This document shows, in pieces, positions 53,601-57,565 of a stretch of 64,000 nt of DNA; position 1 is the first letter of the stretch; each line of letters begins with the position of its first letter. Origin of the DNA: Halorussus vallis (lineage in GTDB: Archaea; Halobacteriota; Halobacteria; Halobacteriales; Haladaptataceae). The position numbers were made by a program, and so were the translations under genes. The stretch covers positions 372,001-436,000 of the forward strand of contig NZ_CP100000.1 in assembly GCF_024138165.1 (NCBI RefSeq), written 5' to 3'. Under the pieces are notes generated by a model. The model saw only the letters and a program-made list of their open reading frames with translations. It was not told the origin of the DNA and did not search any database.

Positions 53601-53669
53601 GGTCCCGACGTGAGCGAATCGGCGGGGTCAAGCACCGTCGCGGCGAACGGTGGGGTGAACGAAGACTGA
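50631..53669 (+). CDS. MMPL/RND-superfamily exporter with large coiled-coil extracellular domain
   Basis: 1012 aa from GTG 50631. Helix 1 (about 18-35) is followed by an extended first extracellular domain that includes about 200 residues of Gln/Arg-rich coiled coil (about 125-320) with an internal duplication, then the five-helix block (about 405-545, with GFMGWAGITFNQIFIAVPVLLIGLSIDYAIHVFMRHRE), helix 7 (about 600), the second extracellular domain with ADTDGDGVPDRNVAQVYDKL, and the last helices with VGLGVAYSIHLSERY. Likely exports hydrophobic or lipid material. Its stop codon overlaps the start of the TrmB regulator gene. Confidence 0.9.
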   Translation: MNGSDLFAAVTKHSRAVIAALLVLTVLVGAGAPMVEQSSSLDQFQSDSTAAKKLDYANANFTSGRENTTTVQLIIRGDDVLSKQSLVQSLEMQQALRTNRTINRTLVNDTPTMGIANVLATAAMRQEQAAQLRAQGAQLKRKQAQLNATTTRLSDLLNRTRELQRRYDQLNRSHAQGQVNNSTYRQRSTQLRQEFRKVNAQAGQLLTDQQAQRFGNLMDQTRKLQGRLDALNASYQAGQINQSTYQQRAESIRQGFQQLYQRGLPGILREEYAQLQQMGKQLRQDRAAFQNASQPSLDEQIEQLRSMNRSELNETITTVLSEGGNGGSSQAFAFMPTSYEPGSTQANATMVVAFQTQKGQTVQSMAGSRLVDSQLAMQQVAQQSMDAEVMVFGSGIISQETNQSMTDSIAIVGPLALVFVVLTLVIAYRDLIDIALGVFGIFAVLVWTFGFMGWAGITFNQIFIAVPVLLIGLSIDYAIHVFMRHREEREEHPDSDVRGSMKVALASVGVALVWVTATTVIGFMSNLVSPLPPIQDFGIVSSVGILAALVIFGGLIPALKVEIDGLLESRGFDRRKRAFGTGGGAIGSFLSVGAVAARKAPWVVIALTLVVSAAGGYGATQVDTSFAQEDFLAEDPPEWMKDLPEPFAPGTYTAKENLDYVNENFLRQDSQAQILVQGDVATGQALDKLQRAKTRAAETDVAVVLSNGEPRIQSPLSVMDQVAAQNRSFNATFAAADTDGDGVPDRNVAQVYDKLYEVAPSQAEGVIHREDGEYRAVRMVVSVKGGASSAEVTEQMREVAAVVEGPNLDATATGQPIVFEIVQQQLLETVIESLLITLGATFAFLMLVYRITEGSATLGAITLLPVAFSVSWILGTMYLLGMPFNVLTGMITSLTVGLGVAYSIHLSERYNVELERRDSMWDAMRTAVTGTGGALLGSAATTVGGFGVLAFAILPALQQFGIITGLTIVYAFLASVLVLPSLLVVWTRYLGPDVSESAGSSTVAANGGVNED

Positions 53670-54439
53670 TGGACGAGAACGACGCCATCGAGGCCCTCGA
53701 GAACCTGGGCCTGTCGAACTACGAGGCGAAGGTGTTCACCGCGCTCCAGAAACTCGGCACCGGCACCGCCCGGGACGTCCACCGGGTGACCGACGTGCCC
53801 CGCTCGCAGGTGTACGGCGCGGCCGAGTCGCTCCAGGAGCGGGGTCTGCTGGAGGTCCAGCAGTCCAAGCCCATCCAGTACCGGCCGGTGAGCCTCGAAG
53901 CCGCCCGGTCGCACCTCCGCGGGGAGTTCGAGCGTACCCAGGAGCGGGCGTTCGACTACCTCGAAACCGCCCGCGAGGAGTACAGCGGCGGCGAGGAGAA
54001 ACAGGAGGATATCTGGACGGTCCACGGCGACGCGAGCATCGACGGTCGGGTCGAACAGTTGCTCGAAGAGGCCGAAGACCGCATTCTCGTCGGGTTCGGC
54101 CGCCACTCGCCGCTCGACGACTGGTTGCTGGACCTGTTGCGCGAGCGGGCCGAGTCGGGCGTAGACGTCGTACTCGTCACGTCGGACGAGTCGTTCGCCC
54201 GGCGGTTCGAGGACGGCCCTATCGGCGTCCGGACGCCCCCGGAGCCCCACGTCCACGACGACGAGCCCATCGGCCGGGTGATCGTCGTCGACGGCGAGAC
54301 GGTCCTCCTTTCCGTCCGGGGCGACCTGGAGTCGGCCGAACTCGACGAGGAGACCGCCATCTGGTCGTCCCAGACCGGCATCGCGGCGGTGCTCATCCAA
54401 CTCATCGAGAGCGGACTCGGCGAGTCGGCGTCGGACTGA
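53669..54439 (+). CDS. TrmB-family transcriptional regulator
   Basis: 256 aa from ATG 53669, overlapping the exporter stop by one base. The TrmB winged helix is plain: ALENLGLSNYEAKVFTALQKLGTGTARDVHRVTDVPRSQVYGAAESLQERGLLEVQQSKPIQYRPV (about residues 9-74). A coiled linker follows, and the C-terminal ligand domain has a PLD-like strand pattern (RILVGFGRHSPLDDWLLDLLRERAESGVDVVLVTSD). Translational coupling to the MMPL exporter implies control of that exporter. The ligand is unknown; a sugar-binding TrmB C-terminal domain as in TrmBL1 is not evident. Confidence 0.9.
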   Translation: MDENDAIEALENLGLSNYEAKVFTALQKLGTGTARDVHRVTDVPRSQVYGAAESLQERGLLEVQQSKPIQYRPVSLEAARSHLRGEFERTQERAFDYLETAREEYSGGEEKQEDIWTVHGDASIDGRVEQLLEEAEDRILVGFGRHSPLDDWLLDLLRERAESGVDVVLVTSDESFARRFEDGPIGVRTPPEPHVHDDEPIGRVIVVDGETVLLSVRGDLESAELDEETAIWSSQTGIAAVLIQLIESGLGESASD

Positions 54440-55622: not shown

Positions 55623-56123
55623 CTATCGGTTCGAACGAAGTCGACGCGACGCCGAGCGGAGTTGGCGCGCGACGGCGTCGTCGTCGACCGGTTTGCCGTC
55701 CCGGCGAATTCGGACGAGCGGCGCGCCGGCGATTCGAAGCCACTCGTCGTCGCCGTCGCCGTCGAGCGTCACGAACTCCTTCGGGCGCGCCGCGCGTCGC
55801 TCGCGACGCGCGGCGCGCCGTCCGGGTCCGTCCCGCCGTCGCCGTTCCGTCTCGTCCTCGAAGCGGTCGAGCGACGGGAGGTCGCCGGTCGTCTCGCAGG
55901 CGACGAGGCGGCGTTCGGGGAGGTTCGAACCCCACTCGCGGAGCGCCGCGCGGTACTCGCGGGCGAGGTCGAGCGCGGTTTCGGCGGCGTCGGGGGAGGG
56001 GAACGACTTGCCCTTCAGCGGAACGGGGCGCTCGCCGGTGTCTGCGTCGACGACGGCGTACGCACCGTCGGGGGCGGCGAGGTCGGCGATTCGTCGGTGG
56101 GAGTCGTCGAGGTGGTCGGCCAT
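55623..56123 (-). CDS. Haloarchaeal unknown, paralogue of the gene at 56997 (cassette member 3)
   Basis: 166 aa. DDSHRRIADLAAPDGAYAVVDADTGERPVPLKGKSFPSPDAAETALDLAREYRAALREWGSNLPERRLVACE, and the final DDEWLRIAGAPLVRIRRDGKPVDDDAVARQLRS, align in order with the 56997-57443 protein. Both end with the same (D/N)(A/P)LV(H/R)(I/V)RRDG(E/K)P strand. An Arg-rich insertion RRDGPGRRAARRERRAARP, encoded by a 36-bp palindrome, is absent from the paralogue. It follows the coiled-coil gene at 79 bp on the same strand and is the third member of the iron-box cassette. Confidence 0.8.
   Translation of the reverse strand: MADHLDDSHRRIADLAAPDGAYAVVDADTGERPVPLKGKSFPSPDAAETALDLAREYRAALREWGSNLPERRLVACETTGDLPSLDRFEDETERRRRDGPGRRAARRERRAARPKEFVTLDGDGDDEWLRIAGAPLVRIRRDGKPVDDDAVARQLRSASRRLRSNR
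55784..55819. repeat. 17-bp-arm palindrome coding for an Arg-rich insertion
   Basis: Arms 55784-55800 and 55803-55819 pair perfectly around TC. It codes for part of GRRAARRERRAARP of the cassette protein at 55623-56123, a segment not shared with its paralogue. Confidence 0.7.
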
Positions 56124-56202
56124 CTGGGCGTGTGGGGTGGAGTCGCGGCCGACCGCTAAGTCCTTTCGAAATCAGGTCGGGAGAACGAGCACGGCGTCGA
56201 GT

Positions 56203-57000
56203 TCACGCCCGCGCGCAGAGGTGGCGCCGGACCGCCCGCTGGCAGTCGGCCAGCAGGTCGGCGAGTCGCGCGAGGTCGGCCAGCACCGGGTGGTCGTCGG
56301 GGAAGTTGCCGTACAGCGCGTCGACGAGCTCGCGCTTTCTGATGCCCTTGAGCCCGGAGTTGCGCGTCCCTCGGAGTTCGGCCTGCCGTTCGCGGGCGAG
56401 TTCGTCGCAGGTTTCGCGGAACGACGCGAGTCGGTCGTGGCGGGCGCGCAGGTCCTCGAACCCCAACCGGAGGAGCGACGTCTCGTCGGCCTCGGCGAGC
56501 CACCCGGTGACGGCGTCGAGTTCGGCGGCGAACTCGTCGAGTCGCTCGCGCTCGGCGTCGACGGCGGCGACGAGGAGGCGACACTCCGAGCGGCGTTCGT
56601 CGACGCGTTCGAGGAGCGTGCGCTTCGACTCCCGCGGGAGTCCGTTGGCGGCCGGGGAGAACGCCGCCGCGAGGTCGGTCGATAGCTCGTCGGCCATCGC
56701 CGCCGTCACGCCGTCGGCGTCGGCGTGCGGGAGGACGGTTTCTCGGAAGGCGCTCCGGACGACATCGACGCCGTTCGAGGACGTACCGGTCGCGTGGACG
56801 GAGAGCGCGCCGGCGGCGGGGCCGCCACCCGAGGGTGTGCCGCCCGAGAGCGCGCCGCCCGAACCCGCGCCGCCGGATTCGACGGGGGCGTCGGCGACTC
56901 GCTCGGCGAACGCCTCGAAGGCGGCCGCCTTCGCCTCGGTTTCTTCGCGCTCAGTTTCGCAACGCTCCATCGCGGCCTGGGTCCGGAGTTCGACGCTCAT
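56203..57000 (-). CDS. Haloarchaeal coiled-coil unknown, cassette member 2
   Basis: 265 aa from ATG 57000, which overlaps the stop of the upstream gene (ATGA). ELRTQAAMERCETEREETEAKAAAFEAFAERVADA is an N-terminal helix; a Gly/Ser-rich variable linker (about 42-70) follows; the C-terminal two thirds are helical with LSTDLAAAFSPAANGLPRESKRTLLERVDERRSECRLLVAAVDAERERLDEFAAELDAV and a final VDALYGNFPDDHPVLADLARLADLLADCQRAVRRHL. Translationally coupled to the first cassette gene. I recall it as a DUF7260-like haloarchaeal family (tentative). No known function; iron response is suggested by the promoter. Confidence 0.8.
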   Translation of the reverse strand: MSVELRTQAAMERCETEREETEAKAAAFEAFAERVADAPVESGGAGSGGALSGGTPSGGGPAAGALSVHATGTSSNGVDVVRSAFRETVLPHADADGVTAAMADELSTDLAAAFSPAANGLPRESKRTLLERVDERRSECRLLVAAVDAERERLDEFAAELDAVTGWLAEADETSLLRLGFEDLRARHDRLASFRETCDELARERQAELRGTRNSGLKGIRKRELVDALYGNFPDDHPVLADLARLADLLADCQRAVRRHLCARA

Positions 57001-57443
57001 AGCTTCGAGTCCAACTGGCGCGACACCGCGTCGTCCGGGAGCGGTTCGCCGTCCCGCCGGACGTGGACCAGCGGCGCGTTGTCCATCCGGAGCCACTCGC
57101 GCTCGTCATCGCCCGAGAGTGTGACGGTCCGCGACGACCGCGGCAGTCCGTTCGCACGCTGGCCGGGTGCGCGCTCGCGCGTGGCGACCATCCGGAGCGG
57201 GTCGCTCTCGACCTCGTAGACGACGAGGCTGCGCTCGGGGAGGTCGGGGTCCGCTTCGCGCAGGGCGGTCCGGTACTCGGTCGCCAGGTCGGCCGCTTCG
57301 TCCGCAGCGCGTTCGGTCGGGAACCGGTGGTCGGCCACGGGCGTCGGTCGGTCGCCGGTTTCGGGGCAGGCGAGGTAGAACTCGCCGTCCTCGGCGGCGA
57401 GTTCGGCGATCCGGTCGCGGAGGTCGCTCGGGCAGGCGGACAT
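56997..57443 (-). CDS. Haloarchaeal unknown, cassette member 1
   Basis: 148 aa. PSDLRDRIAELAAEDGEFYLACPETGDRPTPVADHRFPTERAADEAADLATEYRTALREADPDLPERSLVVYEV is followed by DPLRMVATR and ends WLRMDNAPLVHVRRDGEPLPDDAVSRQLDS. It is the paralogue of the 55623 protein (same opening, middle and closing blocks) but lacks the Arg-rich insertion. Its promoter carries two iron-box-like palindromes. It overlaps the next gene by four bases. The encoded fold is unknown, small and alpha/beta. Confidence 0.82.
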   Translation of the reverse strand: MSACPSDLRDRIAELAAEDGEFYLACPETGDRPTPVADHRFPTERAADEAADLATEYRTALREADPDLPERSLVVYEVESDPLRMVATRERAPGQRANGLPRSSRTVTLSGDDEREWLRMDNAPLVHVRRDGEPLPDDAVSRQLDSKL

Positions 57444-57444
57444 G

Positions 57445-57462
57445 GTTTAGGTTCGCCTAAAC
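57445..57462 (-). promoter_or_regulatory. Iron-box-like palindrome 1 (DtxR/SirR-type operator)
   Basis: GTTTAGGTTCGCCTAAAC is an 18-bp palindrome with 7-bp arms (GTTTAGG and CCTAAAC) and four central bases. It resembles the TTAGG...CCTAA operators of DtxR/IdeR-family iron repressors. It directly precedes the start of the cassette (57443), overlapping the predicted start of transcription. Confidence 0.6.
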
Positions 57463-57466
57463 AGAA

Positions 57467-57480
57467 TTAGGCCGGCCTAA
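57467..57480 (-). promoter_or_regulatory. Iron-box-like palindrome 2 (DtxR/SirR-type operator)
   Basis: TTAGGCCGGCCTAA is a perfect 14-bp palindrome, flanked by A/T (ATTAGGCCGGCCTAAAA). Its centre is 20 bp from that of box 1, about two helix turns, so two repressor dimers could bind on the same face. The TTTTA at its outer end can serve as the TATA box, so binding would block the promoter. Confidence 0.6.
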
Positions 57481-57565
57481 AAGATGTTGCGGATGGCGGT
57501 CGCTCGAACGCTCGGGGAAGATGGAACTATCGGTTCTCGGATACCAGGGCGGCGCTACGGAGGCG

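Follow-up and report, generated by a model that had tools for sequence, protein, structure and literature searches.

The iron-dependent repressors DtxR and IdeR of bacteria recognise an iron box with the consensus TTAGGTTAGCCTAACCTAA, a 19-bp operator that includes a third half-site (...CCTAACCTAA). The haloarchaeal counterpart is referred to as the FerR signal, which is said to have its source in a comparative study of haloarchaeal DtxR regulons by Leyn and Rodionov in 2015. The DtxR-family iron regulon of haloarchaea, with the regulators Idr1/Idr2 and SirR, has a TTAGG/CCTAA palindrome in its promoters and the fhu transporter genes among its members (PMC11349517). The locus considered below lies in a stretch of 64,000 nucleotides of a Halorussus genome (the window, C1:372001–436000) and is a minus-strand cassette with the gene order DUF7552 (PF24422), DUF7260 (PF23921), DUF7552.

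The cassette and its promoter

Gene 1 (56997–57443, minus strand, 148 amino acids) and gene 3 (55623–56123, minus strand, 166 amino acids) both encode a short form of DUF7552 (E = 3e-27 and 3e-23; 95.2 and 82.5 bits versus the curated Pfam cut-off of 27) and are 46% identical. Gene 2 (56203–57000, minus strand, 265 amino acids) matches the DUF7260 profile of Pfam from position 4 to position 242 of 242 (E = 1e-61; 209 bits versus a cut-off of 27), and the AlphaFold2 model of its product (pLDDT 88) exhibits two long helices, 123–172 and 181–210, which are in line with a coiled coil. A weak match of this protein to Rad50 reflects the coiled coil and was not taken as a sign of relationship. The earlier note on this DNA had described the cassette as two paralogues around a coiled-coil gene, which agrees with the family assignments, the identity and the long-helix model, and as a translationally coupled operon, which applies only to its first part: genes 1 and 2 are joined by an ATGA overlap, but gene 3 follows gene 2 after a gap of 79 nt, so that coupling is indicated for genes 1 and 2 only.

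The AlphaFold2 model of the DUF7552 short form (pLDDT 77, pTM 0.55) is confident only to about residue 80. By profile search no relative of DUF7260 or DUF7552 was found in the PDB, with Foldseek no structural relative of the two models (best E 2.8 and 0.23), and the NCBIfam search of the window proteins gave nothing useful. A match to DUF7551 (PF24420), which is the usual partner domain of DUF7552 elsewhere, is absent from the window proteins when these are searched with the Pfam profiles, and the C-terminus of the short form was also rejected as a DUF7551 homologue by hhalign (probability 0.5%).

The pattern TTAGGN4CCTAA occurs twice in the 64-kb window, both times at the cassette promoter, while 100 dinucleotide shuffles of the window contained on average 0.00 matches and never two. 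Both 14-bp cores are perfect palindromes whose starts are 20 bp apart, at exactly the positions given in the earlier note. The proximal one, TTAGGTTCGCCTAA (57447–57460), is located directly 5' of the ATG, where transcription would be expected to start, and forms the centre of an 18-bp extended palindrome, GTTTAGGTTCGCCTAAAC (57445–57462), with 7-bp arms flanking TTCG. The distal one, TTAGGCCGGCCTAA (57467–57480), occupies the position of the TATA box (roughly −39 to −24 relative to the ATG) and reads TTTTAGG on the minus strand when two extra T are included. Upstream of it there is a BRE-like CCGCAAC (57486–57492, minus strand), which is CCGAAAC in most relatives; this block is conserved in the promoter comparison and is a putative promoter element. 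A spacing of 20 bp corresponds to about two helical turns, and both sites would thus lie on the same side of the helix. Paired sites outside Halorussus have a spacing of 34–36 bp.

Distribution of the operator and of the two protein families

All named relatives that were found belong to Halorussus. The earlier note had held that the iron reading would fail if orthologous cassettes lacked the palindromes. Both are kept in 16/16 of the Halorussus cassette promoters examined, at the same place and 20 bp apart, and the site is strongly overrepresented at DUF7552 loci throughout the class. All 16 promoters are built alike: a BRE-like block is followed by TTTTAGG-N4-CCTAA at the TATA position and this by another TTAGG-N4-CCTAA, which ends immediately 5' of the ATG. 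Apart from the cassette, Halorussus has a long DUF7552 gene, and in 10/11 cases this is preceded by a TTTACTT-like box and only one site, located at the ATG; the remaining one (L028) has a degenerate site, TTAGCTAGCCTAA.

The neighbours of the Halorussus cassettes are genes for thioredoxin, a helicase, DUF7544 and an MMPL permease. In the window, an MMPL/RND-type permease (PF03176; 50631–53669, plus strand) is followed by a TrmB-family regulator (53669–54439, plus strand); in three named Halorussus loci there is synteny between the permease and the cassette. No iron box with two mismatches or fewer was found near the permease of the window. In Haloferax volcanii, an RND permease is the protein most strongly induced by iron starvation (PMC11349517). 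Two Halorussus loci (L024 and L047) have a two-gene version, in which the two DUF7552 genes are neighbours and no DUF7260 gene separates them.

The whole Halorussus genome (5.05 Mb) contains 14 TTAGGN4CCTAA sites versus 1 for the reversed-pattern control, as counted by an exact-pattern search that may miss degenerate sites. They are found at a siderophore biosynthesis cluster encoding IucA/IucC and a class-III aminotransferase, with three sites before the aminotransferase gene, and also before genes for Peripla_BP_2 (FhuD-like) lipoproteins. Further palindromes overlap with, or are immediately next to, the starts of two ORFs which, from a reading of the sequence, we take to be SufC-like and SufS-like, and one precedes an ORF which we likewise take to be lipoate-protein-ligase-like (C1:3685030, C1:2165719 and C1:3089950; L015, L012 and L014). 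The sites at the SufC- and SufS-like ORFs suggest that Fe-S assembly may be under iron control. The pattern is not peculiar to this genome: it is present in 97/97 haloarchaeal genomes, in nearly all of them well above the control count.

DUF7552 was found in 256 of the 391 haloarchaeal genomes searched (61/86 genera) and DUF7260 in 119 of the 145 searched; a control search found both in Haloferax volcanii. The usual form of DUF7552 is a fusion with DUF7551, often followed by DUF7260. Sixty DUF7552 loci were compared, chosen to cover many genera from the stronger of the profile matches listed and therefore not a random sample; in 31 of them a site lies within 300 bp of the DUF7552 gene, and in 56 within the 10-kb stretch, the other four having no exact site. 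Many of the remaining loci have the site 0.3–3.6 kb upstream, often in front of a gene for a binding protein; two have it only downstream. The 604 kb of DUF7552 loci contain 99 sites, whereas about 1.7 would be expected from the density in the genome of the window; when the five letters were permuted, none of the 29 alternatives gave more than one match, and spacers of any other length between 0 and 12 gave none.

Homologues of FhuD, FecCD, FecE or FAD oxidoreductases are encoded within about 5 kb in 30/60 loci. In Halobellus limi, for example, genes for a HEAT protein, an FAD oxidoreductase, an iron ABC permease, an ATPase, two binding proteins and an FAD protein form a collinear run that ends with the DUF7552/DUF7260 pair; the set of Halobacterium hubeiense is much the same but in divergent orientation, and Haladaptatus has an iron ABC transporter nearby. 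DUF7260 is also found without a DUF7552 neighbour. A site within 1.5 kb of DUF7260 is present in 10/14 loci with DUF7552 and in 2/16 without (Fisher p about 0.0015), which indicates that the link to iron follows DUF7552. One DUF7260 gene without a DUF7552 neighbour (L163) is immediately preceded by two iron boxes (1381 and 1417) with a distance of 36 bp. The short form of DUF7552 also occurs outside Halorussus: in L123 (8253–8768, minus strand) it lies directly 3' of a siderophore binding-protein gene with paired upstream iron boxes.

Probable control by iron and possible functions

A search for the DNA-binding domain of iron repressors gives seven matches in the genome. Three of these are clear, namely a SirR-like protein of 225 amino acids, which has Fe_dep_repr_C and FeoA domains, and two Idr-like proteins of 141 and 152 amino acids. 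The general statement of the earlier note that haloarchaea have DtxR-type regulators is thus valid for this organism, and its proposal that the cassette is held back by an iron-loaded repressor is supported by the conservation of the site, by the occurrence of the same site before siderophore and Suf genes, and by the DtxR family encoded here. We consider it highly likely that the cassette is regulated by an iron-dependent DtxR-type repressor putatively binding to the palindromes. The cassette would then very probably be part of the response of the cell to iron shortage, induction at low iron via a repressor of the DtxR/Idr/SirR type being well supported by the sequence.

Since the palindromes are at the TATA position and at the predicted start site, the natural reading is that repression would work by blocking both. 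With iron plentiful, a DtxR-family repressor of the Idr/SirR type, loaded with Fe(II), would occupy the two palindromes and deny TBP/TFB and RNA polymerase access to the promoter; at low iron it would dissociate and the operon would be expressed. The DUF7552 and DUF7260 products could be soluble partners in siderophore-iron acquisition, in which the long-helix DUF7260 protein may serve as a scaffold for one or more DUF7552 proteins. Their probable place would be the step following uptake, where they would retain the ferric siderophore or hand iron over, in conjunction with the FAD oxidoreductase encoded alongside them in many relatives. Placing the proteins after uptake is a guess from gene neighbourhood, and their role in siderophore-iron handling is itself plausible yet tentative. 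Doubtful is the boldest version, in which DUF7552(-DUF7551) and DUF7260 would make up a cytosolic machine of haloarchaea that has no recognisable relative elsewhere and removes iron from ferric siderophores after uptake with the co-encoded FAD oxidoreductase. As a whole, the explanation that the cassette is an iron-starvation operon and that its products are helpers of siderophore-iron acquisition is in our opinion probably right.

Iron control of this kind could also serve proteins that act in iron sparing, in Fe-S assembly or in intracellular iron storage and delivery. The operator before SufS- and SufC-like ORFs in the same genome would fit this, as would the half of the 60 loci in which no siderophore-transport or FAD-oxidoreductase gene was seen within about 5 kb. 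The long-form partner domain DUF7551 has, moreover, the invariant residues C121, H122, E130, E141, E153 and C162 (numbering of sequence A3), and these Cys, His and Glu could bind a metal. However, the window proteins are without DUF7551, and the neighbours that are recognisable mostly belong to siderophore ABC transporters or are FAD oxidoreductases, so that we regard such a function as the less probable one, although as the most serious competitor. Distinctly less probable is that DUF7552 and DUF7260 are regulators or co-regulators that tune a DtxR-type repressor or transcription at low iron. A DtxR-type gene is present in 9/60 DUF7552 loci, for one product of which a Fe_dep_repress match was obtained, and in the five loci measured it starts 154–158 bp after DUF7260 in the same direction. 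Yet the regulator gene is missing from most loci, no DtxR gene adjoins the window cassette, and in the DUF7552 and DUF7260 proteins of the window no DNA-binding domain was recognised with Pfam. The DtxR-type regulators encoded after DUF7260 in several genera (L086, L089, L094, L135 and L140) are about 130 amino acids long and are possibly dedicated regulators of the module.

As for the metal, several DtxR-family members are encoded in the genome and DtxR-family palindromes resemble each other, which would allow the sites to be operators of a manganese- or zinc-sensing paralogue. But the genes marked by the site are those for siderophore biosynthesis, FhuD-like proteins and Suf; the operator before siderophore and Suf genes makes iron, rather than another metal, the likely signal, and a manganese or zinc operator very improbable. 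That the palindromes are without regulatory role and due to chance, to a mobile element (transposon ends) or to RNA hairpins can practically be dismissed: conservation and position rule this out, and the exact spacing and sequence and the association with iron genes also speak against it.

Comparison with described systems

The first 14 bases of the bacterial consensus TTAGGTTAGCCTAACCTAA match the proximal palindrome in 13/14 positions, and, as in bacteria, the operator overlaps the promoter. The window has, however, two 14-bp palindromes 20 bp apart rather than one 19-bp operator, and the third half-site of the bacterial consensus is not present at the proximal palindrome, where 57447–57465 reads TTAGGTTCGCCTAAACAGA. 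With the haloarchaeal FerR/DtxR regulon the locus shares the TTAGG/CCTAA palindrome in the promoter and DtxR-type regulators in the genome; it differs in that the cassette encodes uncharacterised proteins. The IucA/IucC and aminotransferase cluster of this genome, with its three sites, resembles the schizokinen cluster of Haloferax volcanii, and the passages of the respective papers on schizokinen and the iron response that were covered do not name DUF7552 or DUF7260 (PMC7407949; PMC11349517).

A literature search on DUF7552 and DUF7260 gave no match, Leyn and Rodionov 2015 being outside the comparison. The iron box as such is already known from the FerR/DtxR regulon, while no description was found of the DUF7552/DUF7260 pair as its members. 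Two uncharacterised families are thus placed in the iron-starvation response, which can be tested in genetically tractable haloarchaea, and they provide concrete candidate genes for the handling of siderophore iron after uptake, which is poorly known in these organisms.

The usual relative of the cassette is the DUF7552-DUF7551 fusion followed by DUF7260, with which it has the order (DUF7552 then DUF7260) and the operator in common. The window DUF7552 differs from it in being without DUF7551, in having another, short C-terminal part with a conserved EWLRM..APLVHV motif, and in being duplicated around DUF7260. What Halorussus has in the cassette is a shortened and duplicated version.
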